Shown in pieces: positions 1 through 64,000 of a stretch of 64,000 nucleotides of DNA. The stretch comes from Vogesella sp. LIG4 (GTDB lineage: Bacteria > Pseudomonadota > Gammaproteobacteria > Burkholderiales > Chromobacteriaceae). Below the pieces are notes generated by a model. It saw nothing but the letters and a program-made list of their open reading frames with translations, had not been told where the DNA came from and did not search any database. How positions within the stretch are numbered: position 1 is the first letter of the stretch; every line of letters starts with the position of its first letter. The stretch is from assembly GCF_900090205.1 (NCBI RefSeq), contig NZ_LT607802.1:1125215-1189214 (forward strand). Direction: 5' to 3'. The translations under genes were made by a program, and so were the position numbers.

Positions 1-89
1 CAGGCCGAAGCCCCTGTTACCGTTCGACTTGCATGTGTAAAGCATGCCGCCAGCGTTCAATCTGAGCCAGGATCAAACTCTTTAGTTCA
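1..89 (-). rRNA. rrs: 16S ribosomal RNA, 5' end (partial)
   Basis: Read on the minus strand, this holds the universal bacterial 16S start AGAGTTTGATCCTGGCTCAG, followed by the V1-proximal stretch with ACATGCAAGTCGAACGG. Only about 89 bases of the 5' end are present and the gene continues off the left edge. The mature end is placed about eight bases before AGAGTTTGATC by analogy with E. coli, so the boundary may be off by a few bases. The GGCATGCTTTACACATGCAAG stretch is typical of Neisseriales, which is the main taxonomic clue here. Confidence 0.96.
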
Positions 90-215
90 AATCCAAGCAA
101 TTTGTGGCACGCAAGTTCAAAGAAACCGAACTCGAGAAACCTCGAATCCGTGTCACTTTCTCTTGCAGTGCAAGTGTCTGGCTTGCCAGGCACTTACACC
201 TATCGGTTATTTGGT

Positions 216-227
216 TTGTTAAAGAGC
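216..227 (-). promoter_or_regulatory. boxA antitermination element of the rRNA leader
   Basis: The minus strand reads GCTCTTTAACAA, a near-exact match to the bacterial rRNA leader boxA, which is bound by the NusB-S10 antitermination complex. It lies between the rRNA promoter and the 16S 5' end, as expected. Confidence 0.85.
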
Positions 228-268
228 GGGCTGACTTCGTTTCGTTGCGTCGTCAGCAGAGGAGGCGA

Positions 269-297
269 ACTATACCCATCGCCCCTGAAGCCGTCAA
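269..297 (-). promoter_or_regulatory. Sigma-70 promoter of the rRNA operon
   Basis: On the minus strand, TTGACG (292-297) and TATAGT (269-274) are separated by exactly 17 bases. This is close to the ideal sigma-70 promoter. Transcription should begin near 262 and run through boxA into 16S. A GC-rich discriminator follows the -10, as in stringently controlled rRNA promoters. Confidence 0.88.
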
Positions 298-365
298 CAG
301 CTGATTGCACGAAAACCCCAACGAATTCGACAAGTGATTGATCCGTAAGGACAGCAAAAACCAAA

Positions 366-387
366 AAGGTTGGCCGCAGCCAACCTT
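366..387 (-). terminator. Terminator hairpin built from the TGCGGCCAAC repeat
   Basis: Arms AAGGTTGGC (366-374) and GCCAACCTT (379-387) form a 9-bp stem. On the minus strand it is followed by a T-rich run, and it lies about 50 bases beyond the carbonic anhydrase stop codon, so it should terminate that gene. The left arm contains one full copy of the dispersed uptake-like word. Confidence 0.8.
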
Positions 388-436
388 GCAGGAAAAAGCC
401 CGGCTGGCGCCGGGCTGTCTGGTTCTGAATTACGGC

Positions 437-1387
437 TTAATGGCTCGCCACTGTGCCGGTTACGCTGCCCGCGCCCATGAAGAAGTTGCCGGCCTTGGTG
501 AGTGCGGCCAGCTTGCCCGGCTCGGTTTCACCATTGATGTTGGTAATGATGAGTTTGCCGCGCCCCTGCTTGTAGTCGTTGCGGAAGTCATAGAAGGCGC
601 CGATTACCGCCAGCTTGCCGGCATCGACCTCGCCACCGAACTTGAGCAGTGCCGCCTCCACCTGGTTGTTGACGTTGATCAGCACGCCATCGTTCACCGC
701 GATGCCCTTGGGAATATTGATGGTGAGCAGTTCCTTGCGGATGGCCGGTTCCAGATTGGAGAAGTCACCGCTGGCGGCTTCGATGGCGCCGCAGACGGAG
801 TGGCCGATGAACATCAGCAGCGGGGTGTGCAGGTGACGTACGCCGTATTCGATGGAGCCCTCGGCCGTGGCCAACTGGTTGCCGATGTCGCGCACCACGA
901 ACAGGTCGTTGACGGCATCACCATGGAAGGCATTGGTCTGTACGCGGGAATCGGAACAGGTAACAACGGTGGCACGCGGCGTCTGCTTGCTGGCGAAGCG
1001 TTCGAAATAGGCGGCCGGTTTGCTCTTCATATAGCGCTGGTTGGCATCCAGCATGGCTTTGACCAGGCCCTGCACCGGGCCCAGTTCATCGGCATGGCTG
1101 CTGGCTGGTGCCACCGGCTTTCTGGCGTGTTTGGCCACCTTGCCGCTGGCAGCCGCATGAACGGCAGCCACCTTGCCGCGGCTGCTGTTCATTACCTTGC
1201 TTTTGTTGTTGACCGAAGCGCTGTGGTCCGCCGGCTGCAGGGGGTGGATGGATGGCTCCAGTTGTTCGGCATTGGCTGCCGGCAATGGCAGCTTGGGCGG
1301 CTGGATCTCGCTGGCCGGCACATTGCCCGCCACCAGCAGTAACAGGCCTGTGCACCACAAGCCCGCCGGACGCATCAACTTGCGCAT
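437..1387 (-). CDS. Beta-class carbonic anhydrase, exported
   Basis: Predicted 316-residue enzyme that interconverts CO2 and bicarbonate using zinc. The beta-class zinc site is visible: CSDSR at residues 144-148 (Cys144, Asp146, Arg148) and HSVCG with His196 and Cys199. Residues 1-25 form a signal peptide with a hydrophobic core ending near PAS. A low-complexity Ala/Lys/Pro linker of about 70 residues separates it from the catalytic domain, so the enzyme probably works in the periplasm. The start at MRKLM was chosen over an upstream ATG because AAGGGGAAGTC precedes it as a good ribosome binding site. A terminator hairpin lies downstream, so it is probably transcribed alone. The family call is firm; the exported location is inferred from the leader. 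Confidence 0.9.
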   Translation of the reverse strand: MRKLMRPAGLWCTGLLLLVAGNVPASEIQPPKLPLPAANAEQLEPSIHPLQPADHSASVNNKSKVMNSSRGKVAAVHAAASGKVAKHARKPVAPASSHADELGPVQGLVKAMLDANQRYMKSKPAAYFERFASKQTPRATVVTCSDSRVQTNAFHGDAVNDLFVVRDIGNQLATAEGSIEYGVRHLHTPLLMFIGHSVCGAIEAASGDFSNLEPAIRKELLTINIPKGIAVNDGVLINVNNQVEAALLKFGGEVDAGKLAVIGAFYDFRNDYKQGRGKLIITNINGETEPGKLAALTKAGNFFMGAGSVTGTVASH

Positions 1388-1450
1388 GACTTCCCCTTGC
1401 TTCAATTGTTCTGGCATCTTTGCCTCAATATCGGCAGGGTTGCAGAAAAC

Positions 1451-2341
1451 TCAATTTTTGTGAACTTGTCGTTGCGGCCAACGTTTGGCCTGGCTGATGA
1501 AAACGCCCAGCAATACCAGCACGCCGGCCAGCCATTGCGGCGTGCTCAGCCGTTCGCCCAGCATGGAGGCCGCCATGCCCAGGGTGAATACCGGAATCAG
1601 GTTGATGAAGGAACCGGCCAGCGCCACCGGCACCCGGCTTACCGCCCAGGTATAGATACCGTAGGCCCCCAGCGTTACGCATACCCCCAGGTACAGCACC
1701 CAGGCTACCGCCGTAGGCGGGTAATGCGTGGGCAGGTGCGCCCATGGTGTCAGCAGGATGACGCCGAACCAGGCTGCACCCAGCACCGTCTGGGTAGCCG
1801 TGATGGCCAGGGCGGAAAAGCGCGTGGACAGTTTCTTGGCGATCAGCACATAGCCGGTGGCGCAGATCATGGCCATGAATTCGAGGAAGTTGCCCAATAC
1901 CGGCGCCGGTGCGCTGGCATCCGGCTCGCTGCCGCTGGTCAGCCAGATCACGCCGGACACCGACAGCGACAGCCCCACCCACACCAGCGGCGACTGCCGC
2001 TCGCGCAACAGGAAGTGCGCGCCCACCGCCACCAGCAGCGGCAGTGTGGACGTGATCATGCTGGCTTGCGAGGCACTGGTGCGCAGCAGCGCATTGGCCT
2101 CGAACAGGAAGTACAGGCAGGGCTCGCACATGCCCATCAGCAGCAGCCACTTCCAGTCGCCCTTGCGGTATTTCCAGCGATCCCCGCGCCCGAGCAGGAA
2201 CGGCAGCATGCAGAGGGTGGCGATCACCATGCGGCAGAACAGCACGAATACCGGGTCGAACACCGCAAACACGGTTTTGAGTGCAATGAAGGCACTGGCC
2301 CACAGCAGCATGGCCAGGCTCAGGGCAAGGTAAGGCAGCAT
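1451..2341 (-). CDS. EamA/DMT family membrane transporter
   Basis: A 296-residue, ten-helix inner-membrane carrier of the drug/metabolite transporter superfamily (two EamA repeats). The N-terminal MLPYLALSLAMLLWAS and the repeated aromatic-glycine helices are typical. The substrate cannot be told from sequence; family members export amino acids or other metabolites. The start is preceded by CGGAG at good spacing. The long upstream extension of this reading frame lies antisense to the FAD oxidoreductase and is not counted. The C-terminal tail (RWPQRQ) is encoded by a copy of the uptake-like word at 1474-1482, showing that the repeat can invade a gene end. It is divergent from the downstream oxidoreductase. 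Confidence 0.87.
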   Translation of the reverse strand: MLPYLALSLAMLLWASAFIALKTVFAVFDPVFVLFCRMVIATLCMLPFLLGRGDRWKYRKGDWKWLLLMGMCEPCLYFLFEANALLRTSASQASMITSTLPLLVAVGAHFLLRERQSPLVWVGLSLSVSGVIWLTSGSEPDASAPAPVLGNFLEFMAMICATGYVLIAKKLSTRFSALAITATQTVLGAAWFGVILLTPWAHLPTHYPPTAVAWVLYLGVCVTLGAYGIYTWAVSRVPVALAGSFINLIPVFTLGMAASMLGERLSTPQWLAGVLVLLGVFISQAKRWPQRQVHKN

Positions 2342-2461: not shown

Positions 2462-3565
2462 ATGGATAAAGTGGATTGCGTGGTGATAGGCGCCGGGGTG
2501 ATTGGCCTGGCCTGCGCCCGGCTGCTTGCCGCCAGCGGCCGCGAGGTGGTGATAGTGGAGCGGGAGGCTGCCGCCGGCCAGCATTGCAGCAGCCGCAACA
2601 GCGAGGTGATTCACGCCGGCATCTATTATCGCCCCGGCAGCCTGAAAGCCCGGCTGTGCGTGGCGGGCAAGGCCATGCTGTACCGCTACTGCGCCGAGCG
2701 CGCCATCGCGCACCAGCGTATCGGCAAGCTGCTGCTGGCGGTAACGGCGGACGATCTGCCAAGGTTGGCCGCATTGCAGGCGCAGGCGGCGCAGAACGGC
2801 GTCACCGACCTGCGCTGGCTGGATCAAGCCGGACTGGCCGACTGCGAACCGGCCCTGCAGGCACATGCCGCCCTGCTGTCGCCCTCCACCGGCATCATCG
2901 ACAGCCACGGCCTGATGCAGGCGCTGCTGGCGGATACGGAAGCAGGCGGTGCACAGCTGGCGCTGGCTTCCAGCGTGCAGGGGCTGCGCGCCACGGCCGA
3001 TGGCCTGGTGCTGCAACTGGCCGATGGCTACGAGCTGCTGGCCGGCTGCGTCATCAATGCCGCTGGTGCCTGGGCGCCGGCGCTGGCGGCCGGCTGGCAG
3101 GATGTTCCACGTGAAACCGTACCCACGCCCTACTACGCCCGCGGCGTGTATTTTGCACTGCAGGGGCGCAGCCCGTTTTCGCGGCTGATCTACCCGATGC
3201 CTGAAGCCGGCGGCCTGGGCACCCACCTGACGCTGGACCTGGCCGGCCAGGCGCGCTTCGGCCCGGACGTGGAGTGGATAGACAAGGTGGATTACACGCT
3301 GGACCCGTCACGCGGCGAGCGCTTCTACGGCAGCATCCGCCGCTGGTGGCCGCAACTGGCGGATGGCGCGCTGGCGCCGGCCTACTGCGGGGTGCGGCCC
3401 AAGATTGCCGGGCCGGGCATGGCCGATGCCGATTTCCTGATCCAGGACGCCAGCCAGCATGGCGTGCCGGGGCTGATCAACCTGTTCGGCATCGAATCGC
3501 CCGGGCTGACCGCCAGCCTGGCGATAGCCGAACAGGTGGCCGCCCGCGTGTTGCCGGCAGGCTGA
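2462..3565 (+). CDS. FAD-dependent oxidoreductase, L-2-hydroxyglutarate dehydrogenase-like
   Basis: A 367-residue flavoprotein of the DAO/GlpD fold. An N-terminal dinucleotide-binding motif [10 protein letters not shown] sits at about residues 8-17, followed by [13 protein letters not shown], which is characteristic of the LhgO/L2HGDH subgroup. The conserved C-terminal block contains [10 protein letters not shown] and [15 protein letters not shown]. The likely reaction is oxidation of L-2-hydroxyglutarate or a related 2-hydroxyacid, with electrons passed to the membrane pool. AGGGAGGG precedes the ATG. One uptake-like word (2764-2772) and a parS-like site (3104-3117) lie inside the reading frame. 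Its stop codon abuts the stop of the convergent gene with no gap. The exact substrate is inferred from the subgroup. Confidence 0.85.
3104..3117. other. parS-like site 1
   Basis: GTTCCACGTGAAAC matches the bacterial ParB-binding consensus GTTNCACGTGAAAC, and the full 16-mer is TGTTCCACGTGAAACC. It lies within the FAD oxidoreductase gene, where it encodes VPRET. Confidence 0.8.
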
Positions 3566-4120
3566 TCAGCCGGCCACTTGCTGCTGCGCAATCCGTGCCA
3601 CGATGCCCAGCATGCGGCGGCGAATCAGGCCGCTGACCGGGCGGATCAGGCACCAGTACGGCAGAAAACGCAGATAGCTGGCACGGTCCGGGCAATGCAC
3701 CCGGGTTTCCGTCTGCAACAAGCTGCCGCCATCGGGCAGCGGCTTGATCTGCCAGCCCAGTACCAGGCGCGGCACATCGCTGCAGCGGGCAAACCCGGCG
3801 GCATCCGCCAGCGTCCGCAGCCCGTAATCGGCTTGCCAGAAGCAACCCGCCAGGCCATATACCAGGCCGCCATCGTCCTGATGCAGCATGGTGAAGGAAT
3901 GCAGGCCGAACGGCTGTGCCGGCAGCTGCCGGCGCGCGCCCAGACTTGCGGCCAACCTTGCCGGCGCTTCGCGTAGCGCTATCAGCCGCTCCACCAGCGG
4001 GTCACGCCACTGCGGCAGGGCGGCCAATGCCGCCCGCAGTTGCCCGGCATCGGTGCTGACCCGGCGCTGGTGGCGTTCGCTGAACTGGTAATGCGGCAGG
4101 AAATCATCAAGTGCCGGCAT
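3566..4120 (-). CDS. Conserved hypothetical protein, SRPBCC-like
   Basis: A 184-residue cytosolic protein without signal peptide or clear catalytic motif. The pattern of a YxFSERH start, an LPAxPFGLHSF middle, a GLAGCFWQ strand and a QTETRVH...YWCLIRPVSGLIRR C-terminus resembles a widespread uncharacterised family that I recall as SRPBCC/polyketide-cyclase-like. The terminal RPxSGxIRR motif is its clearest mark. No ligand or partner can be proposed. It converges on the FAD oxidoreductase with stop codons directly abutting, and is followed nine bases later by the solute-binding protein on the same strand. An uptake-like word at 3948-3956 is embedded in the reading frame. Confidence 0.72.
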   Translation of the reverse strand: MPALDDFLPHYQFSERHQRRVSTDAGQLRAALAALPQWRDPLVERLIALREAPARLAASLGARRQLPAQPFGLHSFTMLHQDDGGLVYGLAGCFWQADYGLRTLADAAGFARCSDVPRLVLGWQIKPLPDGGSLLQTETRVHCPDRASYLRFLPYWCLIRPVSGLIRRRMLGIVARIAQQQVAG

Positions 4121-4129: not shown

Positions 4130-4885
4130 TCATGGCTGCGGCTCGCTCTGGTAGCGGCGGAAAATGGCATCGTAGCGGCCATCCTGCTTGATGCGGCGCA
4201 GGCCGGCGTCGTAGTGCTGGCGCAGCGTGGCATCGTGCCACAGCACGTCGGCCTCCTTGGGCGGCAGCAAGGGGTAGAACGCTACCGCCAGCTGCGCCTG
4301 CTTGCCCAGCTTGCGGCGGTTCCATTCGAAGATCAGCCGGTCGGTAAAAATCACGTCGCAGCGCCCCAGGTACAGCGTGCGCAGCTGGCTGACCTGATCG
4401 GCAATTTCACTGTAATTGCCATTGGCAATCGCCAGCACCGAGTCGTAACCGCTGTTGGGGATATCCGCCTGCGCGCCATCCCAGGCCACCACGCGCAGCG
4501 GTTGCAGATCCTGCAGGGTTTCCAGCTGCAGCTGCCGGCGCTGCAGCGCCACCACCACGTTATCGAAGGAATGCAACGGCCGCCCGGCGCTGCCGGGCAG
4601 CTGGTATTCATGCTGCAGGCTGGGGGAAACATCGTACAGCGCGTCCAGCTCGCCGCGGCGATAGGCGCTGACTCGCCGCGTGAACGGGTAGAACACCGGC
4701 GTTACCGTCAGCCCTTCGCTGCGCAGCGCTTCCACCAGCAGCTCCACCGCGATACCCGGGCGCTTGTCCACGTTCACCCACGGCGGGATGCTTTCCGGAA
4801 AGCCGACCTTCACCACATCGCCGCCCCAGGCGTTTGCCAGCCACAGCAGCAGTAGTGCGGCCAACTTGATACGGGCTGTTTTCAA
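4130..4885 (-). CDS. Periplasmic solute-binding protein, family 3 (TTG start)
   Basis: A 251-residue extracellular solute-binding protein of the amino-acid-type SBP_bac_3 family. It has a signal peptide (MKTARIKLAALLLLWLANAW) and then the two-lobe domain (FPESIPPWVN, GELDAL, LRVVAWDG). No permease or ATPase gene is adjacent, so it may be an orphan sensor-like binding protein, as is common in Neisseriales and pseudomonads. The reading frame continues upstream without an ATG. A TTG at 4885 is chosen because GGTGAG lies six bases before it and TTGA forms a four-base overlap with the stop of the MOSC gene, implying translational coupling. An uptake-like core at 4857-4865 lies in the leader-peptide codons. 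Confidence 0.82.
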   Translation of the reverse strand: MKTARIKLAALLLLWLANAWGGDVVKVGFPESIPPWVNVDKRPGIAVELLVEALRSEGLTVTPVFYPFTRRVSAYRRGELDALYDVSPSLQHEYQLPGSAGRPLHSFDNVVVALQRRQLQLETLQDLQPLRVVAWDGAQADIPNSGYDSVLAIANGNYSEIADQVSQLRTLYLGRCDVIFTDRLIFEWNRRKLGKQAQLAVAFYPLLPPKEADVLWHDATLRQHYDAGLRRIKQDGRYDAIFRRYQSEPQP

Positions 4886-5682
4886 TCGAAGCTCACCGTA
4901 CTTGCCAACACTTCTACAGTATCGCCCAGTTTCAGCACGCCGCTGTTGCGGGCCACCAGGTTCACGCCAAAGCACACGCCTTCCGGCAGGCGGCGGTAGC
5001 CCATCAGCGTGGCCAGCGGCTGTTTGTCCGGGTGCGGTACTGCGCTGTGCGGATCGATGGTGGTGAAGATACAGCGCGTGCAGCGGCTGGCTACCTCGAA
5101 CTCCACCTCGCCGATGCGGATGTGCTGCCACTCGTCTTCCTCGAAGGCGAAGGTGTCGTTCACCACCAGGTTGGGGCGGAACTGGCGCATGCTCACCGCT
5201 GCGGCCAACCTGCCGTTCAGATCCGCCAGCGAGGCCTCGCTGATCAGCATGAACGGCGCGCCGTCGGCAAACGACAACGGCAGTTCGCTGTCCTGGTAGC
5301 GGCGGGTGCTCTGCCCCAGCCACAACAACCGTACCGACTCGCCCAGCCAGGCGCTGAACCAGGCATCGGCGGCCGCATCGCCGGCCAGCGCGGTGAATTC
5401 CGACTTCCACACCTGCGCACGGTGCGATTGGGAGAACAGATGGCTGTGGGTATGCAAGGTGGCGGCGCCCGGCGCGGCAAACTGCCAAGCGCCATCCGCC
5501 AGCTGTTGCGCCACCACCTGCACCAGGCGGTGATGGGTACGCGCGGTGATCTGGCTGCCGTCCGGGCGCACCACCAGCCACACCCGGTCGCCGGCCAGGC
5601 CTTGCGGCGTCACGTCGGCCTGCTCCACGGCATTGCCGCGGCAGGATTTGAGCGGATGTACGAACAGCTGACTGAGTTGCAT
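4882..5682 (-). CDS. MOSC domain protein (YcbX-like)
   Basis: A 266-residue protein with an N-terminal MOSC beta-barrel (LSQLFVHPLKSCRGN at the start) and a C-terminal MOSC domain carrying a conserved Cys in RCTRCIF followed by GVNLVARNSGVLKLGD. MOSC proteins handle sulfur or nitrogen on the molybdenum cofactor. YcbX and the mARC family reduce N-hydroxylated compounds with Moco. The downstream ferredoxin domain of E. coli YcbX is absent, so an unknown electron donor would be needed. The start at MQLSQ is preceded by GGGGGA. It is translationally coupled to the solute-binding protein gene downstream. An uptake-like word is at 5201-5209. Confidence 0.87.
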   Translation of the reverse strand: MQLSQLFVHPLKSCRGNAVEQADVTPQGLAGDRVWLVVRPDGSQITARTHHRLVQVVAQQLADGAWQFAAPGAATLHTHSHLFSQSHRAQVWKSEFTALAGDAAADAWFSAWLGESVRLLWLGQSTRRYQDSELPLSFADGAPFMLISEASLADLNGRLAAAVSMRQFRPNLVVNDTFAFEEDEWQHIRIGEVEFEVASRCTRCIFTTIDPHSAVPHPDKQPLATLMGYRRLPEGVCFGVNLVARNSGVLKLGDTVEVLASTVSFD

Positions 5683-5766: not shown

Positions 5767-5780
5767 TGCGGCCAACCTTT
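5767..5780 (+). repeat. Intergenic single copy of the uptake-like word
   Basis: TGCGGCCAACCTTT lies between the divergently ended MOSC start region and the stop of the symporter gene. No inverted partner is nearby. Confidence 0.85.
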
Positions 5781-6827: not shown

Positions 6828-6836
6828 GCGGCCAAC
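6828..6836 (+). repeat. Uptake-like word in the symporter/LysR promoter region
   Basis: GCGGCCAAC core, preceded by GAT and followed by CTGC. It is a single copy in the divergent intergenic region and may lie close to promoter elements. Confidence 0.75.
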
Positions 6837-6925: not shown

Positions 6926-7816
6926 ATGAATATCACCCTGCGCCAGCTGCGCGCCTTCCTGGCGGTAAGCCAGCACGGCGGCTTCGGCCGCGCCGGCGAC
7001 CGCGTCGGCCTTACCCAGTCGGCAGTAAGCCGCAGCATTCGCGAGCTGGAGGAACAACTGGGCGTGCGGCTGCTGGATCGCACCACCCGCGAGGTGCTGC
7101 TCACCGCCACCGGCCAGCGCCTGAGCGCCCAGCTCACCCGCGTGCTGGACGAGCTGGACGGCGTGCTGGCCGAGGCGCACCAGGCCGGCGAACAGGCCAA
7201 GGGCACGGTGCGGGTGGCCAGCAGCCCGACGCTGTCCGCCAGCCTGATGCCCGCCTGCCTGGCGGCTTGCGGCCAACGTTATCCCCAGGTGCAGCTGCAG
7301 ATACTGGACCAGGTGCAGCGCTTGAACCTCGACAGCGTGCTGTCCGGCGAGGTGGATTTCGGCCTGGTGGTGGACCCGCGCGCGCAGCCGGGGCTGGAAG
7401 GCGAAGCGGTGGTCAGCGACCCGTTCTGCCTGGTGCTGCGCCCGGATCATCCGCTGGCGCAGCAGGACAGCGTGCAGTGGCGGCAGTTGCAGGATGCGCC
7501 GCTGGTGCTGCTGGACGGCAACAGCGGCAGCCGGCCGCTGATCGAGGCGGCGCTGGCGGCGCAGGGCGTCAGCGCCCACGTGGTGCAGCAGCTGGGCCAT
7601 TCCAGCGCCGTATTCCGCGTGGTGGAGGCCGGCATCGGCATCAGCATCTCGCCCCGACTGGCCCTGCCGCTGCCGGCCGGCAGCCAGCTCACCGTGCGCC
7701 CGCTGCTGCCGGAGATCCGCCGTGACGTGATGCTGGTGCGCCGCGCCGGGCGCTCGCTGTCGCCGCTGGCGGAAAAGGTATGGCAGCTGATGCGCGAGGT
7801 GCTGACCACGCAGTAG
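6926..7816 (+). CDS. LysR-family transcriptional regulator
   Basis: A 296-residue regulator. The N-terminal winged helix-turn-helix (residues 1-60: ITLRQLRAFLAVSQHGGFGRAG, then LTQSAVSRSIRELEEQLG) is textbook LysR. The remainder is the periplasmic-binding-protein-like effector domain (TVRVASSPTL at about 92). It probably controls the divergent symporter gene, possibly through the 160-base shared promoter region; the effector is unknown. There is no strong Shine-Dalgarno before the ATG. An uptake-like word (7269-7277) lies inside the effector domain, encoding CGQRY. The stop is followed by a perfect palindrome of two head-to-head uptake-like words. Confidence 0.92.
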   Translation: MNITLRQLRAFLAVSQHGGFGRAGDRVGLTQSAVSRSIRELEEQLGVRLLDRTTREVLLTATGQRLSAQLTRVLDELDGVLAEAHQAGEQAKGTVRVASSPTLSASLMPACLAACGQRYPQVQLQILDQVQRLNLDSVLSGEVDFGLVVDPRAQPGLEGEAVVSDPFCLVLRPDHPLAQQDSVQWRQLQDAPLVLLDGNSGSRPLIEAALAAQGVSAHVVQQLGHSSAVFRVVEAGIGISISPRLALPLPAGSQLTVRPLLPEIRRDVMLVRRAGRSLSPLAEKVWQLMREVLTTQ

Positions 7817-7834: not shown

Positions 7835-7854
7835 TGCGGCCAACGTTGGCCGCA
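7835..7854. repeat. Palindromic pair of uptake-like words between convergent genes
   Basis: TGCGGCCAACGTTGGCCGCA is a perfect 20-base palindrome made of two fused copies. It sits between the convergent LysR and AraC-type genes, 3 bases from the AraC stop codon. It could act as a bidirectional terminator, but no T-run follows on either strand. Confidence 0.85.
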
Positions 7855-7856
7855 GA

Positions 7857-9948: not shown

Positions 9949-9989
9949 AAAGGTTGGCCGCAAATCCTCCGGGGCTTGCGGCCAACCTT
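9949..9989 (+). terminator. Inverted pair of uptake-like words after the MFS gene
   Basis: AAAGGTTGGCCGCA and TTGCGGCCAACCTTT are inverted around a 13-base loop (cores 9953-9961 and 9978-9986). The hairpin begins about 17 bases after the MFS stop and ends in short T-runs, consistent with a Rho-independent terminator. Confidence 0.75.
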
Positions 9990-10984: not shown

Positions 10985-10993
10985 GTTGGCCGC
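10985..10993 (-). repeat. Single uptake-like word downstream of hutH
   Basis: GTTGGCCGC core within CTGGTTGGCCGCAG, about 25 bases after the hutH stop codon. It has no inverted partner. Confidence 0.8.
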
Positions 10994-12553: not shown

Positions 12554-12607
12554 GATGGTCTTTCCGGTTGGGCGGCCGCTATCGGCCGCCACAGGTGTTT
12601 CGATGCT

Positions 12608-12632
12608 GCGGCCAACCTTGTGGGTTGGCCGC
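12608..12632 (-). repeat. Inverted pair of uptake-like words between hutU and hutH
   Basis: GCGGCCAACCTT (core 12608-12616) and GGGTTGGCCGC (core 12624-12632) can form a GC-rich hairpin inside the operon. There is no T-run, so it may lower or protect downstream transcript rather than terminate fully. Confidence 0.75.
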
Positions 12633-12639
12633 AAGCGGA

Positions 12640-14416: not shown

Positions 14417-15349
14417 TCAGCGCCGCAGCTGGCGCGTGATCGACCACGCCAGCCGCGCCGCCGCCTTGGCGCCGTGGCTGTCCTGATCGAATGTCGGGTT
14501 GAATTCCACCAGGTCGGCGCCGATCAGCTTGCCGCTCCTGGCGATCTTGGACACCAGCGCTTCCACCACGCTGATATCCACGCCGTAACCGGCCGGGGCG
14601 GATACCGCCGGCATCTGTGCCGCCGGCAGTACGTCCAGGTCGATGGTGAGATAGACCACATCCACGCTGTCGACGAACTCGGCCAGCTGGTGGCGGGCAT
14701 CGGCCAGCTGCCAGGCGGTCATGTCGCTGTCCAGTCGCCATTCGGCGCCGAGCTTGGCAGCGGATTCGAACAGCGCACGGGTGTTGGCGGTTTCCGCCAC
14801 GCCCAGGCACAGGTAGCGGAAGTTGTTACCGCGACGGGTGCATTCGGCGGCGATCTGTGCGAACGGGGTGCCACTGGTGGCTTCTGCCGCGCTGCGCAGG
14901 TCGAAGTGGGCGTCGAAGTTGACGATGCCGATGCGCTTGCCCTGGTGGGCATTGGCCAGGCCCAGCCAGTGGCCGTAGGCGGTTTCGTGGCCGCCGCCCA
15001 GTACCAGCGGCAGGTGGCCGGCTTGCACGATGGCGGTCACTGCTGCGGCCAACCTTTGATGCGCGGCATCCAGGTCGCCGTCGTCGCAGACCACGGTGCC
15101 GGCGTCGTACAGCGGCAGCGTCGGGTGCCAGGCCAGGTTGGCCAGCGCCTTGCGCAGCGCCAGCGGGCCGGCCACGGCGCCGGTGCGGCCCTGGTTGCGG
15201 CGCACGCCTTCGTCACAGGCAAAGCCGAGAATGGCGATGCCCGGTGCCACGCCGGCCGCCAGCGGTTGTACCGCCTGGTGCCAGCGGCGGGCCAGATCGC
15301 CCTCGGCGGCGTCAATGCGCCCGGTCCACATGCTCATGTCGATAGTCAT
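14417..15349 (-). CDS. hutG: Formimidoylglutamase
   Basis: A 310-residue arginase-superfamily metallohydrolase that splits N-formimidoyl-L-glutamate to glutamate and formamide. Manganese-ligand motifs are visible: GGGHETAYG, NFDAHFDLR and the DLDVLP block. Presence of this enzyme indicates the four-step Hut route rather than the five-step deiminase/HutF route, since no hutF is seen here. It starts three bases after the hutI stop, so it is tightly coupled. An uptake-like word at 15045-15053 lies in the gene, encoding part of QRLAAAV. Confidence 0.94.
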   Translation of the reverse strand: MTIDMSMWTGRIDAAEGDLARRWHQAVQPLAAGVAPGIAILGFACDEGVRRNQGRTGAVAGPLALRKALANLAWHPTLPLYDAGTVVCDDGDLDAAHQRLAAAVTAIVQAGHLPLVLGGGHETAYGHWLGLANAHQGKRIGIVNFDAHFDLRSAAEATSGTPFAQIAAECTRRGNNFRYLCLGVAETANTRALFESAAKLGAEWRLDSDMTAWQLADARHQLAEFVDSVDVVYLTIDLDVLPAAQMPAVSAPAGYGVDISVVEALVSKIARSGKLIGADLVEFNPTFDQDSHGAKAAARLAWSITRQLRR

Positions 15350-17633: not shown

Positions 17634-17657
17634 GTTGGCCGCATGCTTGCGGCCAAC
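17634..17657. repeat. Inverted pair of uptake-like words after the dienelactone hydrolase gene
   Basis: GGTTGGCCGCA and TTGCGGCCAACC (cores 17634-17642 and 17649-17657) are inverted with a 6-base loop. They lie 15 bases past the hydrolase stop codon on the minus strand. No T-run is present. Confidence 0.8.
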
Positions 17658-18390: not shown

Positions 18391-18399
18391 GTTGGCCGC
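18391..18399 (-). repeat. Uptake-like word upstream of the dienelactone hydrolase gene
   Basis: AAGGTTGGCCGCATG at 18388-18402 lies 5-10 bases upstream of the AGGAG ribosome binding site of the minus-strand gene. Confidence 0.8.
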
Positions 18400-20199: not shown

Positions 20200-20208
20200 G
20201 CGGCCAAC
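20200..20208 (+). repeat. Single uptake-like word at the edge of the copy-B element
   Basis: ATGCGGCCAACGTTGTG lies between the terminator and the structured repeat, in a gene-free stretch. Confidence 0.8.
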
Positions 20209-35755: not shown

Positions 35756-35764
35756 GTTGGCCGC
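35756..35764 (-). repeat. Uptake-like word in the rarD 5' leader
   Basis: GCGTTGGCCGCAT at 35754-35766, 13 bases upstream of the rarD ATG on the minus strand. Confidence 0.8.
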
Positions 35765-40736: not shown

Positions 40737-40756
40737 TGCGGCCAACGTTGGCCGCA
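40737..40756. repeat. Palindromic pair of uptake-like words between convergent genes
   Basis: TGCGGCCAACGTTGGCCGCA is a perfect 20-base palindrome, identical to the copy at 7835. It lies 4 bases past the MarR stop and abuts the stop codon of the minus-strand gene. Confidence 0.88.
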
Positions 40757-46205: not shown

Positions 46206-46874
46206 ATGAGACTGTTGCTGGTCGAAGACAACCCCGACATCGCGCTGTGGCTGCAGAAGGCGCTGTCGGCTGCCGGCCACGCGGTGGATGTCGCCGCCGA
46301 CGGCGTGCAGGCCGATCAGCTGCTGGGCTATGAGCCCTACGCGCTGGTGATCCTGGACATTGGCCTGCCGCGCATGGACGGCTTCGAGGTGCTCAAGCGC
46401 CTGCGCCGGCGCGGCAACCGGGTGCCGGTGCTGGTATTGACAGCGCAGACCGGGGTGGATGCGCGCGTGCATGGCCTCGACCTGGGCGCCGACGACTACC
46501 TGGGCAAACCGTTTGAGCTGGCCGAGCTGGAAGCGCGGGTGCGCGCGCTGCTGCGCCGCTCGCAGGGCAAGGAAGACGGCGTGCTGCAATGCGGCGAGCT
46601 GTTGTTCGAGCCGGCCAGCAAGCGCTACAGCGTGCGCGGCCAACCTTTGGCGCTGACGCCGCGTGAAATGGCGGTGCTGGAAGTGCTGCTCTACCGCCAG
46701 GGCAAGCCGGTGAGCAAGGAAACCCTGGCCGAGCAGATCGTGCGCCTGGACCAGGACCTGAGCCCGGACGCCATGGAAATCTACGTGTACCGGCTGCGCA
46801 AGAAGCTGGTGGACAGCGGTGTGGTGATCCTCACCCTGCGCGGGCTGGGCTATATGCTGGACGTGGCCAAATGA
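46206..46874 (+). CDS. tctD: TctD-like response regulator
   Basis: A 222-residue OmpR-type regulator. The receiver domain has Asp8, the phosphorylation site Asp51 in VILDIGLPRMDG, Thr79 and Lys101 (GKPF). The C-terminal winged helix carries LTPREMAVLEVLL and YVYRLRKKL. It overlaps tctE by four bases. Family knowledge: TctD activates tctCBA in response to tricarboxylates; the divergent AfuA-like gene and the tct operon nearby make the same role likely here. An uptake-like word at 46636-46644 encodes RGQPLAL. Confidence 0.92.
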   Translation: MRLLLVEDNPDIALWLQKALSAAGHAVDVAADGVQADQLLGYEPYALVILDIGLPRMDGFEVLKRLRRRGNRVPVLVLTAQTGVDARVHGLDLGADDYLGKPFELAELEARVRALLRRSQGKEDGVLQCGELLFEPASKRYSVRGQPLALTPREMAVLEVLLYRQGKPVSKETLAEQIVRLDQDLSPDAMEIYVYRLRKKLVDSGVVILTLRGLGYMLDVAK

Positions 46875-48250
46875 GCCGTTCGCTGCGCCGCCAGCTGGTG
46901 CAGTGGGTGGTGATTCCGTTGCTTCCGCTGGCGGCGGCCACCGCCTGGCTGGCACAGAACAACGCGCGCGAGGCGGCCAATGCCGCCTTCGACCGCACCC
47001 TGCAGGCTTCCGCGCGCAGCATTGCCGAGCGCATCACGCTGCAGGATGGCGAACTGGTGGTGGACCTGCCGGTGGCGGCGCTGGAGATGTTCGATCCGCA
47101 CTTCCAGGACCGGGTGTTCTACCGCATCAGTTTTGCCGGCGGCACCACCGTTACCGGCGATAGCGAACTGCCACAGCCGCCCAGCCTGCCGGCGGCGGGC
47201 GAGGTGCGTTTCTACGATGCCCGCCTGCGTGGCGAGGAAATCCGCAGCGTGGCGCTGGGCGTGCCGCTGTTCTACGGCGGTGGCCAGCGCCTGCTGCTGG
47301 TGCAGGTGGGCGAGACCACCCTGTCGCGCCAGGCGCTGGCGCGACAGCTGTTCCGCCAGTCGCTGGCACAGCAGTGGCTGATCGGCGCGGTGGCGGCGCT
47401 GCTGGTGGCGGTGGGCATCAACCGTGCGCTGCGGCCGCTGCAACGGGTGCGCGCCATCCTGCGCGAGCGTGCCGGCGACCCGTCGCTGCAACTGGAAGTG
47501 GGCAGCGTGCAGCGCGAGCTGCAGCCGCTGGTCAGCGCACTCAACAGCGCGCTGGCGGAGCTGGAGCAGCAACTGGCGGTGCAGAAGCGCTTTACCGCCG
47601 ATGCCGCCCACCAGCTGCGCACCCCGCTGACGCTGTTGAAAACCCAGGCCGAGGTGACGCTGCGCATGGCGGATCCAGCCGAGCAGCGCAGTGGTGTGGC
47701 AGCGCTGGTGCGCGCCACCGACCAGGTGATACGGCTGGCCAACCAGCTGCTGGCGCTGTCGCGCGCCGAACCCGGCCCCAACCGCCACGACACCGCCGAG
47801 CTGGACCTGGCTGAGCTGGCGCGCGCGGTGACCCTGGACTTCGTCACCGTGGCGCTGGGCAAGTCGCTGGACCTGGGCTACGAGGGCGACGAGCATGCCC
47901 CCTTATGCGGCCAACCTTTGCTGCTGCGCGAAATGCTGTCCAACCTGGTGGACAACGCGGTGCGCTACACCCCGGCCGGCGGTGAAATCACCGTCGGTGC
48001 GCATGCCCGCGGTGACGAGGTGGAACTGACAGTGGCCGACAGCGGCCCGGGTATTGCGCCGCAGGAGCGCGCGCTGGTGTTCGAGCGCTTCTACCGCGGC
48101 CAGCAGACCGGCGGCGACGGCTGCGGCCTCGGTCTTGCCATCGTGCGCGAGATCGTGCGCGGCCACGGCGGCCAGATCCGGCTGGAAAGCGCCAGCGCCG
48201 GCGGCCTGCGGGTGGCGATCACCCTGCCCCGTCAGCCACCGGCGCGCTGA
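46871..48250 (+). CDS. tctE: TctE-like sensor histidine kinase
   Basis: A 459-residue membrane kinase. Helix 1 (VVIPLLPLAAATAWLAQ, residues 13-29), a periplasmic 2CSK_N sensor domain to about 160, helix 2 (WLIGAVAALLVAVGI) and a HAMP-like linker. The H-box has His247 in TADAAHQLRTPLTLL. The ATPase has NLVDNAVRYTP, DSGPGIAPQE and GLGLAIVREIV. The start overlaps tctD (ATGA). An uptake-like word at 47907-47915 encodes CGQPLLL, much like the one in tctD. Confidence 0.93.
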   Translation: MSRSLRRQLVQWVVIPLLPLAAATAWLAQNNAREAANAAFDRTLQASARSIAERITLQDGELVVDLPVAALEMFDPHFQDRVFYRISFAGGTTVTGDSELPQPPSLPAAGEVRFYDARLRGEEIRSVALGVPLFYGGGQRLLLVQVGETTLSRQALARQLFRQSLAQQWLIGAVAALLVAVGINRALRPLQRVRAILRERAGDPSLQLEVGSVQRELQPLVSALNSALAELEQQLAVQKRFTADAAHQLRTPLTLLKTQAEVTLRMADPAEQRSGVAALVRATDQVIRLANQLLALSRAEPGPNRHDTAELDLAELARAVTLDFVTVALGKSLDLGYEGDEHAPLCGQPLLLREMLSNLVDNAVRYTPAGGEITVGAHARGDEVELTVADSGPGIAPQERALVFERFYRGQQTGGDGCGLGLAIVREIVRGHGGQIRLESASAGGLRVAITLPRQPPAR

Positions 48251-50456: not shown

Positions 50457-50476
50457 TGCGGCCAACGTTGGCCGCA
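50457..50476. repeat. Palindromic pair of uptake-like words after the chemoreceptor gene
   Basis: TGCGGCCAACGTTGGCCGCA is the third identical 20-base palindrome in the window (also 7835 and 40737). It lies about 50 bases past the chemoreceptor stop. The T-run lies on the wrong side for terminating that gene. Confidence 0.85.
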
Positions 50477-50528: not shown

Positions 50529-52607
50529 TTACAGCCGGAAGTTGCCCACCAGGTTTTCCAGGCTGGCGGCCAGTTCGCGCAGCTGATCCACCTCGCGGCG
50601 CACTTCGCCAACGATGTGGTTGTTGCTCTGCGCCATGGTGCTGATGCGCTCCACGTTCTGCGCAATTTCGGAGGCGGCGCTGGATTGCTCGCGGGTGGAG
50701 GAGGCAATGTCGCCGATGCCCAGCACCAGCGCCTGGCTCTTCTCGCGCACCTGCTGCATGGCCTGGTTGGCTTCCTCGGCAATGTCCACGCTCACCGCCA
50801 CCATGGCGCTGGATTTCTTCACATTGCTCACGGCCTCGTCGGTTTCGCTGCTGATGGCGTTGACGATGCGGGTGATCTGCAGCGTGGCCTCGGCGGTGCG
50901 GCTGGCCAGCTGGCGCACTTCGTCGGCCACCACCGCGAAGCCGCGGCCCATTTCGCCGGCGCGCGCCGCTTCGATGGCAGCGTTCAGCGCCAGCAGATTG
51001 GTCTGGTCGGCAATGTCCTTGATCACGTTGACGATGGTGGTGACTTCGCCGGAGCGCTCGCCCAGTGCCTCCATGCGCGTGGCCAGCGCCTGCATGCCGC
51101 TGGTCATGCGGGTGATCTCGGTGGTGACTTTCTCCACCGTGGCCACGCTCTGCTCGGTGAGGCTGCCGGTATCGCGCGCCGCGGTTTCGGCGTCCTGCGC
51201 GGTGTTGGCGATGTGGTGCACGCTGACGGTGACCTGCTCCACCCCGGCGGCGGTGGCGCTGGCGGCGTCGGACTGCTGCGCCGAGGCCTGTTCCACCTGC
51301 ACGGCGGAGGCGCTGAGCTGGCCCGCGGTGCGGCTTACCGCCAGGCTCTGCTCGCGTACTTCCACGAACATGTCGCGCAGTGATTCGATGAACTGGTTGA
51401 AGGCGGCGGCGGTGCGACCGATCTCATCGCGGTTGGGCACCTGGATGCGCACCGTCAGGTCGCCCTTGCCGGAGGCCAGCTGCTCCATGGTGCCGGCCAG
51501 CACGTTCAGCGGGCGGGTCAGCGCGCGCACCACGCCGGCCAGCACCAGCAGGATGATCACCAGCGCGGCGATGCCGATGCCGATGGCGGTGTTGCGCTGG
51601 CTGGCGGCGGCCGCGGTGATGGCGGCGGTGGGCACCGACACGCCGGCGGCCCAGAACTGGCCGGTGTCACCTACCTTGATCGGGTAGAAGAAGTGGGTGA
51701 AGCCGGCGTCCTCGTAGACGAAGCTCTCGCCCTTCTTGATCTTGTCGAGGTTGGCCGCAAGCGGGTCTTCCTTGGCGATGGGCTTGCCCAGCAGCTCGGC
51801 CTTGGGGTTCACCACGTACAGGCCGCCTTCCGACACCATGCGCACGAAGCCGGTGTCGTACAGCTTCACGCTGCCGTATTTCTTCTGCAGGTCGTCCAGC
51901 GCCAGGTCGGCGGCGGCCAGGCCCTGGAACTTGCCGCTGCCGTCCTGGATGGCGTGCGCCAGCGAGCTTTCCAGCACCTGCTTGCCCTGCACTTCGTAGA
52001 AGAACGGCTCGGTGATGGTGTCGCGGTTACGGGTCTTCGGCGTGTAGTAGAAGTCGCCCCAGCCCGGCTTGTCATAGTCCGGCTGGTACTGGGAGAGTTT
52101 GTCCTTCCATTCCGGGAACTTGGCCACCCGGTCGCTGGACATCATGACGTCCTGCTTGGCCTTGCCGTCCGCGCTGCGGGTGATGTACGGGGTGTAGCGG
52201 CCGCTGGGGTCGTGGCGCGGCCAGTCCAGGCGGAACTGGTCGTCCTTGCCGTCCAGCGCGTTCGGCTCGTACAGCATCCACACGCCGATGGCCTGCTTCT
52301 CGGCGTCCAGAGTGCTCAGCAACATGTTGTCCACCACCTTGCGATCCACCGCGCCGGCGCGTTGCAGCCCGGCCACGTTTTCCGCCAGCAGGCGCGGAAT
52401 GGCGAAGCCGCGTGCCAGGTCGCCGGTGACGGAGTCGGCGAAGCGGCCGGCCTGTTGCGAGGCCAGCTCGTAGCCCTGTTCCTTGGCCGAGTCGTAACTT
52501 TGCTTGGCGATCAGCGCGATCATGCTGGAAAAGCCGATGGCGATGGCGATGCCCGCCACCAGGATGATGCGGTTGCTCAGATGGCCCCAGCGTGTGGTTT
52601 CTGTCAT
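50529..52607 (-). CDS. Methyl-accepting chemotaxis protein with dCache-type sensor
   Basis: A 692-residue transmembrane receptor. Helix 1 ([21 protein letters not shown]) is followed by a periplasmic double-Cache-like domain with the [29 protein letters not shown] and [19 protein letters not shown] blocks, then helix 2 ([19 protein letters not shown]) and HAMP. The C-terminal signalling hairpin has [38 protein letters not shown]. No CheR-binding pentapeptide at the C-terminus. The ligand is unknown, but Cache receptors often sense amino acids or organic acids. An uptake-like word at 51750-51758 encodes LAANLD. Confidence 0.95.
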
Positions 52608-54158: not shown

Positions 54159-54189
54159 TGCGGCCAACCTTTGAGCAAGGTTGGCCGCA
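54159..54189 (+). terminator. Terminator from an inverted pair of uptake-like words after the HD-GYP gene
   Basis: TGCGGCCAACCTTTG and CAAGGTTGGCCGCA (cores 54160-54168 and 54180-54188) pair, with TTATTTTTGG after it on the plus strand. It begins 27 bases past the stop codon and faces the GGDEF gene. Confidence 0.9.
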
Positions 54190-57338: not shown

Positions 57339-57803
57339 TCAAGCCGGCTGGTTGGCCGCATCCGGCGCCGGAAACGGCCGCGCGTAGCTGAACGCCGCGG
57401 CACTGGGGCCCTGCTGGCGCAACAGCGCCAGCTTGTCGGCGGCTTCCTGCAGGCTGGGGATGTGACCATGCGGCACCCACCACAGCACGGTGGCGGCCTC
57501 GGCCATGCGGCCGAACCACTCGCGGCGGCGGCGGAAGAATTCCACGTGCTCGCTGCGGTAGACGAAGTCGCCCAGCGCCTCGATGCTGCGCCACACCGAC
57601 ATGTTCACGATCACGTCGTCGCCGAACGGGCGCAGGCTGGTGGCGTCGCCGGCTTCGTCCTGCAGCCGCCACACGAAGCCGGGCGAGCCCTCGCCCAGGC
57701 CGTTGATGTGCTGCAGGTTGGCGACGAAGTCGGCCAGCTGCGGCGAATCCAGTGGCGCCAGCAGGGTGGCGATATTGAGTTGGGCAAGCTGGTAGGCGGA
57801 CAT
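57339..57803 (-). CDS. DUF3291 domain protein
   Basis: A 154-residue cytosolic protein resembling an antibiotic-biosynthesis monooxygenase (ABM) fold. AYQLAQLNIATLLAPLDSPQLADFVANLQHINGLGEGSPGFVWRLQ opens it and NMSVWRSIEALGDFVYRSEHVEFFRRRREWF is the diagnostic block. The catalytic activity is unknown. GGAGCCTGCC precedes the ATG. The last codons (AANQPA) arise from an uptake-like word at 57351-57359, so the C-terminus may have been set by insertion or drift of the repeat. Confidence 0.87.
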   Translation of the reverse strand: MSAYQLAQLNIATLLAPLDSPQLADFVANLQHINGLGEGSPGFVWRLQDEAGDATSLRPFGDDVIVNMSVWRSIEALGDFVYRSEHVEFFRRRREWFGRMAEAATVLWWVPHGHIPSLQEAADKLALLRQQGPSAAAFSYARPFPAPDAANQPA

Positions 57804-57860: not shown

Positions 57861-57892
57861 CAAGCGGCCAACCCTGGCAGGCTGGCCGCTTG
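57861..57892 (-). terminator. Terminator containing one uptake-like word, for the VOC gene
   Basis: CAAGCGGCCA (57861-57870) and TGGCCGCTTG (57883-57892) form a 10-bp stem, with GCGGCCAAC complete in one arm. The minus strand continues into TTTTTTGCC. It lies downstream of the VOC gene. Confidence 0.88.
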
Positions 57893-58415: not shown

Positions 58416-58445
58416 TTGCGGCCAACCTGCAGAGGTTGGCCGCAA
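58416..58445. repeat. Inverted pair of uptake-like words after the DUF3141 gene
   Basis: TTGCGGCCAACCT and AGGTTGGCCGCAA (cores 58418-58426 and 58435-58443) pair with a short loop, 14 bases past the stop of the DUF3141 gene. No T-run is seen. Confidence 0.88.
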
Positions 58446-62300: not shown

Positions 62301-62342
62301 ATATGGCTCCGTGGTCAAGGCCCGGTCTGTGCATCCCGGCGC

Positions 62343-62510
62343 TTACTGCGCCGGGGAACTGTCGGTGTGCTGCTGCAGCTGCTGATTGTAGCTGTCCACC
62401 TGCTGCTGCACCGCCTTGGCCTTGTCCAGATCCTGGCGCTGGCTTTCGGCGATCTTGCCGCTGGGGCCGCAGGCGGCAAGCAGCAGGCTGAGGAGAATGA
62501 CGACGCGCAT
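62343..62510 (-). CDS. Small lipoprotein, 55 residues
   Basis: Reads MRVVILLSLLLAACGPSGKI... on the minus strand, with a lipobox LAAC (Cys14) and then a short charged, Gln-rich helix (AESQRQDLDKAKAVQQQVDSYNQQLQQ) ending SSPAQ. Lipidation at Cys14 would anchor it in the inner or outer membrane. The Gly after the Cys is neutral for sorting. GGAGAGCACC gives a strong ribosome binding site. It is 42 bases upstream of the cupin start and may be cotranscribed with it. Too short for most gene finders. Confidence 0.78.
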   Translation of the reverse strand: MRVVILLSLLLAACGPSGKIAESQRQDLDKAKAVQQQVDSYNQQLQQHTDSSPAQ

Positions 62511-62694
62511 GGTGCTCTCCGGCGGGTAGTGATGCCTGCGTTGTAGGCCAGGTCGCGGCGGGAGGAAAGCCCCAGGGGCGGCTCAGCATGGGGGCACTAC
62601 CGCCTTCATGCCGGCATTGTGCAGCGCACTGCAGCGATTGATCCCGTTGACGTGCCGGGTGAGCGCAGCCGCCCCGGCAAAGCCTGGTGAATCA

Positions 62695-63144
62695 TCACCT
62701 GGGCAGCGGGCACTGCGCGGGCGGGCCGGGCTGCTGCTGCGCCAGCAGCGCATCGGCCTGTGCCTGCTCGCCCTCGCTCAATTTGCGGTAGCCACGGCCA
62801 TAGCGCCAGCCATAGCCCCAGCGGTAAGGCGTGAAAAAGTATGGCCCGCCGCCCAGGTGCACGCCAGTGAACATCAGCTCGGCAAGCTCGCGGCTGCCGC
62901 TGGCCGCCAGCACGCAGCGGCGCAGGGCCTGATCTGCCTGTAGCCGTTGCTCGGCGCTGCCGCCGCGCCAGTAGGCCAGATCATGTGCCACGCAGCAGGT
63001 GCACCAGTCCGCCTTGCCGATCAGCGCCCGGTCCGGAAACAGGCTGCAGCCATCGGTGGTGAACGGCTGCAACGGTGCCTGGGTGGCACAGGCGGACAGC
63101 AGAACGGCACAGCTGGCAATCAGGGATTTGGCAGGGAATGTCAT
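62695..63144 (-). CDS. Lipoprotein with phospholipase A2-like CCxxHD motif
   Basis: A 149-residue protein. The signal MTFPAKSLIASCAVLLSAC ends in a lipobox (LSAC). The mature part has DGCSLFPDR and WCTCCVAHDLAYWRGG. The latter resembles the PLA2 histidine motif CCxxHDxCY, with Tyr/Trp replacing the last Cys. A C-terminal tyrosine-rich block (PYRWGYGWRYGRGYRKLS) is shared with a widespread uncharacterised family. The GGAG ribosome binding site favours the second of two ATGs (63144). Enzyme activity is not established. Confidence 0.78.
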   Translation of the reverse strand: MTFPAKSLIASCAVLLSACATQAPLQPFTTDGCSLFPDRALIGKADWCTCCVAHDLAYWRGGSAEQRLQADQALRRCVLAASGSRELAELMFTGVHLGGGPYFFTPYRWGYGWRYGRGYRKLSEGEQAQADALLAQQQPGPPAQCPLPR

Positions 63145-63279
63145 GCGCATGCTCCAGGCGGGGGCCAGGGCAAGGTGCGCGTGCGGTGGTAGCGGGTCAA
63201 GCCGCGATGGCTAAACAATGGTGTGCATCGCGGCTGCCGCCGTGGCCGGCTTGGTGCTATGGTGGGCGCCTCGGCCAGG

Positions 63280-63288
63280 GTTGGCCGC
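63280..63288 (-). repeat. Uptake-like word in the leader of the double-cupin gene
   Basis: GGGTTGGCCGCAGGAG, its end merging with the AGGAGAG ribosome binding site of the plus-strand gene at 63299. Confidence 0.82.
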
Positions 63289-63298
63289 AGGAGAGAGC

Positions 63299-63958
63299 AT
63301 GCTGCTACGAGCCGACATGACGCAACGCGCGCTGGTGCTGCCCGGCGACTACCAGTTCGTGGCCTCGCCGTTGCCCGGGGTGCAACGCATGATGCTGGAC
63401 CGGGTGGGCGGCGAAGTGGCGCGCGCCACCAGCATTGTCGATTACGCCCCCGGCGCCTGTTTTGACGCCCACGATCACGATGGCGGCGAAGAGATACTGG
63501 TGCTGTCCGGCGAGTTTGCCGACGAGCACGGCGTGTACCCGGCTGGCAGCTATCTGCGCAACCCGCCGGGCAGCCGCCACGCGCCGTATTCCCGTAGCGG
63601 CTGCCGGCTGCTGGTCAAGCTGCGGCAGTTTGCGCCGGACGATGCCGCCACGGTGCGTATCGATACCGCCAGCGCGCCGTGGCAGCCGGGGATGCATCCC
63701 GGCGTGCAGTTGCTGCCACTGCATCGGCATGGCGCCGAGCACACCGCGCTGTTGCGCTGGGCGCCCGGCACGCTGTTCCCGCTGCACAGCCACCCCGGTG
63801 GTGAAGAGATGCTGGTGCTGCAAGGCGTGCTCTGCGACGAAAACGGCTGCTACCCGGCCGGCAGCTGGCTGCGCAGCCCCTGTGGCAGTGCGCACACGCC
63901 GTATACCGGCCACGAGGGCGCTGTGATCTACGTGAAAGCGGGCCACTTGGCGGTGTGA
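63299..63958 (+). CDS. ChrR-like double-cupin protein
   Basis: A 219-residue protein made of two cupin barrels in tandem. The first has FDAHDHDGGEEILVLSGEF and GSYLRNPPGSRHAPYS, the second FPLHSHPGGEEMLVLQGVL and GSWLRSPCGSAHTPYTG. Each has the HxH, Glu and His metal ligands. The YPAGSxLRxPxGSxHxPY pattern is that of the ChrR/anti-sigma cupins and ACC-like oxygenases, but no sigma factor gene is adjacent within the window. AGGAGAGAGC precedes the ATG; a longer in-frame ATG at 63218 has no ribosome binding site. Confidence 0.85.
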   Translation: MLLRADMTQRALVLPGDYQFVASPLPGVQRMMLDRVGGEVARATSIVDYAPGACFDAHDHDGGEEILVLSGEFADEHGVYPAGSYLRNPPGSRHAPYSRSGCRLLVKLRQFAPDDAATVRIDTASAPWQPGMHPGVQLLPLHRHGAEHTALLRWAPGTLFPLHSHPGGEEMLVLQGVLCDENGCYPAGSWLRSPCGSAHTPYTGHEGAVIYVKAGHLAV

Positions 63959-64000
63959 TGCGGCAGCCCGGCGCCGCCGCTCAACCCAGCCAGCAGCTCA

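Follow-up and report, generated by a model that had tools for sequence, protein, structure and literature searches.

A dispersed word of the Vogesella chromosome points to a DUS-like uptake sequence with sister dialects in related genera

The closest described counterparts of the element reported here are the DNA uptake sequences (DUS) of the Neisseriaceae, read by ComP (Frye 2013, PMC3630211; Berry 2016, PMC4906244), and the uptake signal sequences (USS) of the Pasteurellaceae; the DUS dialects and two USS types are the uptake-word groups named, with no other, in the excerpted text of a 2025 paper (PMC12616744). According to excerpts of PMC3630211, every DUS dialect carries A at +10 and CTG at positions +6 to +8, and five genomes from Laribacter, Lutiella, Pseudogulbenkiania and Chromobacterium are described as having no obvious DUS. 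Here we describe a word, TGCGGCCAAC(C/G)TT, dispersed through a 64,000-nucleotide stretch of Vogesella sp. LIG4 (the window; G000:C1:1125215-1189214), a single-contig genome of 4,147,242 bases (4.15 Mb chromosome) from a genus that NCBI taxonomy places in the Chromobacteriaceae, order Neisseriales. We report its count and layout, its phylogenetic limits and dialects, the presence of uptake machinery, the orthology of a ComP protein and the association of ComP type with the word. These data point to a DUS-like uptake word with dialects, previously unreported: no report of this word was found in open-licence PubMed Central literature, judged mostly from titles.

The general traits of uptake words, namely copies far above expectation, within and between genes, on both strands and with inverted pairs near gene ends, are found here. 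With the Neisseriaceae DUS this element further shares an asymmetric word of 10-12 bases in thousands of copies, dialects that follow genera, a type IV pilus and a ComP ortholog. The two have no word in common, however: the core CGGCCAAC lacks CTG and is thus not a DUS dialect in the sense of the excerpts of PMC3630211, though DUS-like by layout, and an earlier sequence-only reading of the window was right to call the word unrelated to the Neisseria DUS. Known DUS dialect words are not enriched. In a 464 kb sample of the genome (the window and 20 further stretches, ~10% of the total, of which at least two were positioned at comP and comEC), seven such words occur 0-10 times each, the highest ratios being eikDUS with 4 copies against 1.3 expected and kingDUS with 9 against 3.9; in the whole of G000, GCCGTCTGAA occurs 2+0 times (forward + reverse strand), as compared to 932+931 in the positive control G044 (110 genomes searched). 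The receptors differ as well, Neisseria ComP having two C-terminal disulfides and Vogesella ComP one cysteine pair. The Pasteurellaceae USS (AAGTGCGGT, ACAAGCGGT) are likewise clade-specific uptake words with dialects, but differ both in the word (0 copies of Hin-USS and 1 of Apl-USS in the 464 kb) and in their proposed receptor pilin, PpdA/ComN rather than ComP (excerpts of PMC12616744).

A sharp, strand-neutral word throughout the chromosome

Exact matching revealed 55 copies of GCGGCCAAC in the window, on both strands, as compared to a mean of 2.69 and a maximum of 7 in 100 dinucleotide shuffles. The sequence-only reading had put the number of core copies at more than 50, and all 31 of the positions and strands it named coincide with exact copies. 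Single copies (exact match and alignment) and inverted pairs (exact match) are as follows, base -1 being noted where it departs from T:

369..377, minus, word copy GCGGCCAAC
1474..1482, plus, word copy
2764..2772, minus, word copy
3948..3956, plus, word copy
4857..4865, plus, word copy
5201..5209, plus, word copy
5768..5776, plus, word copy
6828..6836, plus, word copy
7269..7277, plus, word copy
7836..7853, no strand, inverted word pair, gapless
9953..9986, no strand, inverted word pair
10985..10993, minus, word copy
12608..12632, no strand, inverted word pair
15045..15053, plus, word copy
17634..17657, no strand, inverted word pair
18391..18399, minus, word copy
19309..19317, plus, word copy
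19366..19374, plus, word copy, base -1 = A
20200..20208, plus, word copy
20955..20963, plus, word copy
22058..22066, plus, word copy
24146..24154, plus, word copy
25221..25229, minus, word copy
26110..26118, plus, word copy
26957..26965, plus, word copy, base -1 = G
27897..27905, plus, word copy
31166..31195, no strand, inverted word pair
33662..33670, plus, word copy
34784..34811, no strand, inverted word pair
35756..35764, minus, word copy
37014..37022, minus, word copy
38683..38691, plus, word copy
40028..40036, plus, word copy
40738..40755, no strand, inverted word pair, gapless
41370..41378, plus, word copy
42433..42441, minus, word copy, base -1 = A
46636..46644, plus, word copy, base -1 = C
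47907..47915, plus, word copy
50458..50475, no strand, inverted word pair, gapless
51750..51758, minus, word copy
54160..54188, no strand, inverted word pair, between convergent called genes
57351..57359, minus, word copy
57864..57872, plus, word copy, base -1 = A
58418..58443, no strand, inverted word pair
63280..63288, minus, word copy

Aligning the 55 copies revealed T at position -1 in 50 and a mixture at position -2 (A 21, T 19, C 10, G 5), so that of the TK flank first proposed on the 5' side only the T at -1 is strong. Just 3' of the core, C or G stands in 50 copies, followed by T in 39 and a second T in 35; CTT and GTT, the 3' forms initially singled out, are read in 28 copies, in a tail that is softer than the core. 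In its strict form the word reads TGCGGCCAAC, followed on the 3' side by the softer C/G-T-T, and outside core and tail the flanks carry little signal. Exact inverted pairs number 10, where about 11 had been estimated by eye.

The enrichment extends far beyond the window. In the whole chromosome TGCGGCCAAC occurs 1437 times on the forward and 1458 times on the reverse strand, as compared to 4+4 for the reversed control, and GCGGCCAACSTT occurs 504+506 times (reversed pattern 0+1). In the 464 kb sample there are 286 copies of TGCGGCCAAC, against 3.3 expected under an order-3 Markov model, while most single-base variants of the 10-mer are about as frequent as expected or rarer, and the greatest excesses are at the first base (C 21 against 4.7, G 13 against 6.6); thus the word is sharp, with slight slack at its first base. 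Within 390 called genes we found 192 copies, as compared to 7.3 when synonymous codons were shuffled within genes (standard deviation 2.3, largest 11, 30 shuffles), and neither codon usage nor protein sequence can therefore account for the word. Density is 0.51 per kb in coding and 1.04 per kb in non-coding DNA, values that are rough because the gene calls are home-made and incomplete (they cover 80.5% of the sample). These counts agree with the description of copies inside and between genes on both strands. Orientation is neutral, with 96 copies on and 96 against the strand of the called gene, and a test for bias with GC skew found none (73+/83- in positive-skew stretches, 69+/61- in negative; p 0.34).

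Two further features of the layout stand out in the sample. First, taking low GC as a proxy for acquired islands, we counted words in 2-kb bins by GC content and found 0 in 10 bins below 50%, 3 in 11 at 50-55%, 13 in 21 at 55-60%, 99 in 87 at 60-65%, 166 in 99 at 65-70% and 5 in 4 above 70%. The lack of copies in the lowest bins, the copies inside genes and the nearly signal-free flanks agree in showing that the word is not confined to a transposable unit. Second, close pairs are inverted: all 24 pairs of TGCGGCCAAC less than 60 bases apart, and 25 of the 27 pairs of GCGGCCAAC at most 30 bases apart (2 are direct), 18 of the 27 lying no farther than 80 bases from a called gene's 3' end and 5 inside called genes. 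Across stretches, counts in 16 of the 20 are more even than Poisson (index of dispersion 0.51), the index rising to 1.67 once the four low- or mixed-count stretches are added. Three regions, L085:10000-20000, L089:1-10000 and L087, are almost wordless at a GC content of ~38-57%, against 63% overall, and are probably acquired islands.

Carriers of the word and its sister dialects

Within the family, the word is a mark of one genus: TGCGGCCAACSTT occurs 233-704 times per strand in all 13 Vogesella genomes and 0-7 times in the other 48 family genomes. Among 399 genomes sampled across the order, enrichment of GCGGCCAACSTT is confined to the 6 Vogesella included. De novo counting of 9-mers, on samples from the 13 Vogesella and 10 other family genomes, revealed what the sequence-only reading had not described, sister words on the shared core in five further genera: TTCGGCCAAC in g4, g161, g163 and g164, and CTCGGCCAAC in g160 (labels g2 to g164 are those of the genome collection used). 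Within g161 the sister word is strong in G429 and weak in G428 (7 copies in 40 kb). Word-less genera entered this search with one genome and 80 kb each, a depth at which a rarer word could escape. Whole-genome counts of YTCGGCCAACSTT gave 19-379 per strand in ten genomes (G117, G426, G427, G428, G429, G312, G436, G437, G438 and G439), 0-3 in the 13 Vogesella and 0-2 in the remaining 38 family genomes; the weakest carrier is G438, with 21+19 copies in a genome 84% complete. Outside the family, the shared core CGGCCAACSTT showed no enrichment in any of the 386 genomes sampled, never exceeding 8 copies per strand. The lack of the word in Chromobacterium, seen in whole-genome counts, agrees with the excerpts of PMC3630211.

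The dialect is set by two 5' bases on a constant core, in most cases with the soft C/G-T-T tail. TG precedes 286 of the 357 copies of CGGCCAAC in the G000 sample and CT 49 of 66 core copies in G426, while TT does so in 29 of 40 in G429, 57 of 75 in G436, 40 of 54 in G312 and 33 of 43 in G437. Identities of their ComP proteins tie several of the labelled genomes to named organisms: those of G426 (g160) and G428 (g161) are identical to the ComPs of Crenobacter cavernae and Crenobacter sp. SG2303, that of G435 (g162) is identical to the Paludibacterium yongneupense protein, that of G406 (g2) is 98.6% identical to the Chromobacterium amazonense protein and that of G443 is 88% identical to the Vogesella aquatica protein. 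NCBI places Crenobacter in the Neisseriaceae, and the genome collection used places it in the family of Vogesella.

On a tree of one gene, PBP1A, from 30 of the 61 family genomes, dialects track phylogeny for TG and CT, each forming one clade (100/100 in both cases), while TT is scattered, with five changes, and is not one clade. The word-less state takes four changes: g159 (sister to Vogesella), g162, g2, and g3 minus G117. On this single-gene basis the simplest reading would be an ancestral TT-type word that shifted to TG and to CT and was lost repeatedly.

A ComP ortholog and the type of its loop

The presence of comEC, comEA, pilQ and a ComP ortholog in G000 bears out the expectation that competence genes accompany the word. 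The gene comP lies outside the window, at G000:C1:1559002-1559418, and its product is closest, by sequence and by fold, to solved ComP structures; non-pilin structure matches (inositol monophosphatases, barnase) were set aside as common arrangements. In its surroundings (L090:4639-13700, at ~1.559 Mb), comP and a gene for a GspH-type pilin stand between an envelope-sugar cluster (msbA, a glycosyltransferase and a deacetylase-like gene) and aroB-aroK-pilQ. Elsewhere, at G000:C1:1524970-1526148 (L009/L011/L013), three major-pilin-like genes lie in tandem, two of them nearly identical.

Searching the family with the Vogesella ComP gave matches at E 0.01 in 59 of 61 genomes, and the top 22 all bear the word; the 23rd word-bearing genome, G436, stands ahead of the word-less G435 by E-value (1.8e-12 against 2.0e-12). 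Because the query is itself a Vogesella protein, relatedness contributes to this ranking. G117 is the telling case: the only word-bearer among ten g3 genomes, it has the best g3 ComP match (1.4e-16, the next being 3.8e-12).

The beta1-beta2 loop is among the main DNA-contact regions of Neisseria subflava ComP, according to excerpts of PMC4906244. In this loop region, N-[TVA]-D-x-G is present in 21 of 23 word-bearing ComPs and in 0 of 13 word-less ones (Fisher p 5e-8, a value that ignores kinship), the latter comprising 7 genomes and 6 Chromobacterium-type proteins where 38 word-less genomes exist; regardless of the G, N-x-D is present in 22 of 23 and 2 of 13, respectively. The form RNTD is found in all 13 Vogesella ComPs and in 0 of the 23 others examined, the 10 other word-bearing ComPs included. 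Within g3, the TT word and the N-x-D-x-G loop occur together in G117 only; its nine congeners have no word, and the loop is absent from the four of their ComPs that were read, making this genus a natural experiment in word loss or gain.

Readings of the word

We consider it very probable that TGCGGCCAAC(C/G)TT is the Vogesella dialect of an uptake word for natural transformation, read by ComP. The genome-wide count, the confinement to a clade, the sister dialects, the ComP ortholog near pil genes, the association of ComP type with the word, the strand neutrality and the low-GC depletion all support this reading by indirect tests. They support with it the original suggestion of an own uptake word with a ComP-like reader, which was nonetheless too narrow, the word being one dialect of a set that spans several genera. 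At the type IV pilus, the minor pilin ComP would capture free DNA bearing the word, the N-x-D loop, we infer, helping to read the word; this DNA would then be pulled in via PilQ and passed to ComEA, and ComEC would carry it across the inner membrane. Through preferential uptake of word-bearing DNA and its recombination at homologous loci, the word would accumulate and stay sharp across the core genome, recently acquired islands would stay word-poor, and related genera would use the sister dialects TTCGGCCAAC and CTCGGCCAAC on the same CGGCCAAC core.

A number of observations weigh against this reading. Firstly, no report of natural transformation in Vogesella was found in open-licence PubMed Central literature at title level. 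Secondly, the candidate ComP scores 23.8 bits against the Pfam family ComP_DUS (PF16732), below the cut-off of 27.3. That family is unspecific, however: two other minor pilins of G000 exceed its cut-off, at 72.1 and 53.1 bits, and a PDB comparison made for one of the two gave matches to PilE-type pilins and to no ComP entry. The name is thus misleading, since two minor pilins of the same genome outscore the ComP ortholog, and we dropped PF16732 as evidence on ComP. Thirdly, the 13 Vogesella ComPs have only two cysteines in the C-terminal region, one disulfide pair (further cysteines lie in the N-terminal half in G000, G442 and G441), while the DD region of ComP is held by two disulfides, or four cysteines, in the excerpts of PMC4906244; the lack of the second disulfide leaves "ComP ortholog" supported and "ComP with a DD region" unsupported. 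Fourthly, the association has exceptions: by bits, G436 falls behind the word-less G435 and G413 (48.5 against 48.8 and 48.6), and it has the word without the loop motif; the G341 ComP has NTD without the G; and in two word-less Chromobacterium ComPs the loop reads NID or NVD, again without the G. Lastly, Chromobacterium and other genera in which no word was detected also have ComP homologs, so that ComP alone is no proof of the word, and as both are inherited down the tree, their association is partly one shared history.

The alternative that survives best keeps the uptake word and changes its reader to another pilin, such as the GspH/FimT-type pilin whose gene lies immediately upstream of comP or the GspH-type pilin of the minor-pilin cluster. 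FimT-type pilins bind DNA in other bacteria, a GspH-domain pilin gene directly precedes comP and the genome holds further GspH-domain pilins. Yet it is the ComP candidate that matches solved ComP by sequence and fold, and the ComP loop that largely separates word-bearing from word-less genomes, and we regard another reader as unlikely. Less likely still, the word could be the target of a protein of chromosome organisation, recombination or repair, of the Chi, KOPS, matS, parS or nucleoid-protein type, as its being short, sharp and dispersed genome-wide could suggest. The word shows no bias with GC skew or gene strand and often pairs into hairpins, and to our knowledge Chi, KOPS and matS/parS sites predict neither strand neutrality nor hairpin pairing; four word-less changes on the tree would be odd for an essential chromosome site, and the low-GC depletion fits uptake better.

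The two remaining explanations are scarcely credible. A word linked to restriction-modification or methylation, or to protection from a self-nuclease, could be imagined because TGCGGCCAAC contains GGCC, a common modification target, but restriction normally depletes its own sites, and the requirement here covers an asymmetric stretch of 10 bases and a soft tail 3' of it, the 5' bases differing by genus while the core stays constant. A mobile or structural repeat (a repetitive extragenic palindrome, a miniature inverted-repeat element or a terminator cassette) would suit pairs able to form hairpins near gene 3' ends, but close pairs number only 24 among the 286 sample copies, flank signal is slight beyond ~13 bases, and copies lie inside genes on both strands and are missing from the lowest-GC bins.

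Returning to the uptake word read by ComP, we lean towards a wider proposal, that it belongs to a third uptake-word lineage besides DUS and USS, in which ComP orthologs moved to an unrelated word, the 5'-base dialects track the N-x-D loop and its neighbours, and the word was lost several times while comP was kept. If this is true, one receptor lineage reads two unrelated words, CTG-type in the Neisseriaceae and CGGCCAAC here. Such a third set would offer environmental, non-Neisseria bacteria in which three natural dialects vary two bases next to an unchanging core, as well as relatives in which comP is kept and no word was detected, and would make both word reading by a pilin and the change of a lineage's word directly testable by swaps of word and receptor.

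As for the other contents of the window, positions 11018-14328 hold adjacent genes for histidine ammonia-lyase and urocanate hydratase, and positions 36109-39600 a fused indolepyruvate ferredoxin oxidoreductase gene, all of them ordinary genes.

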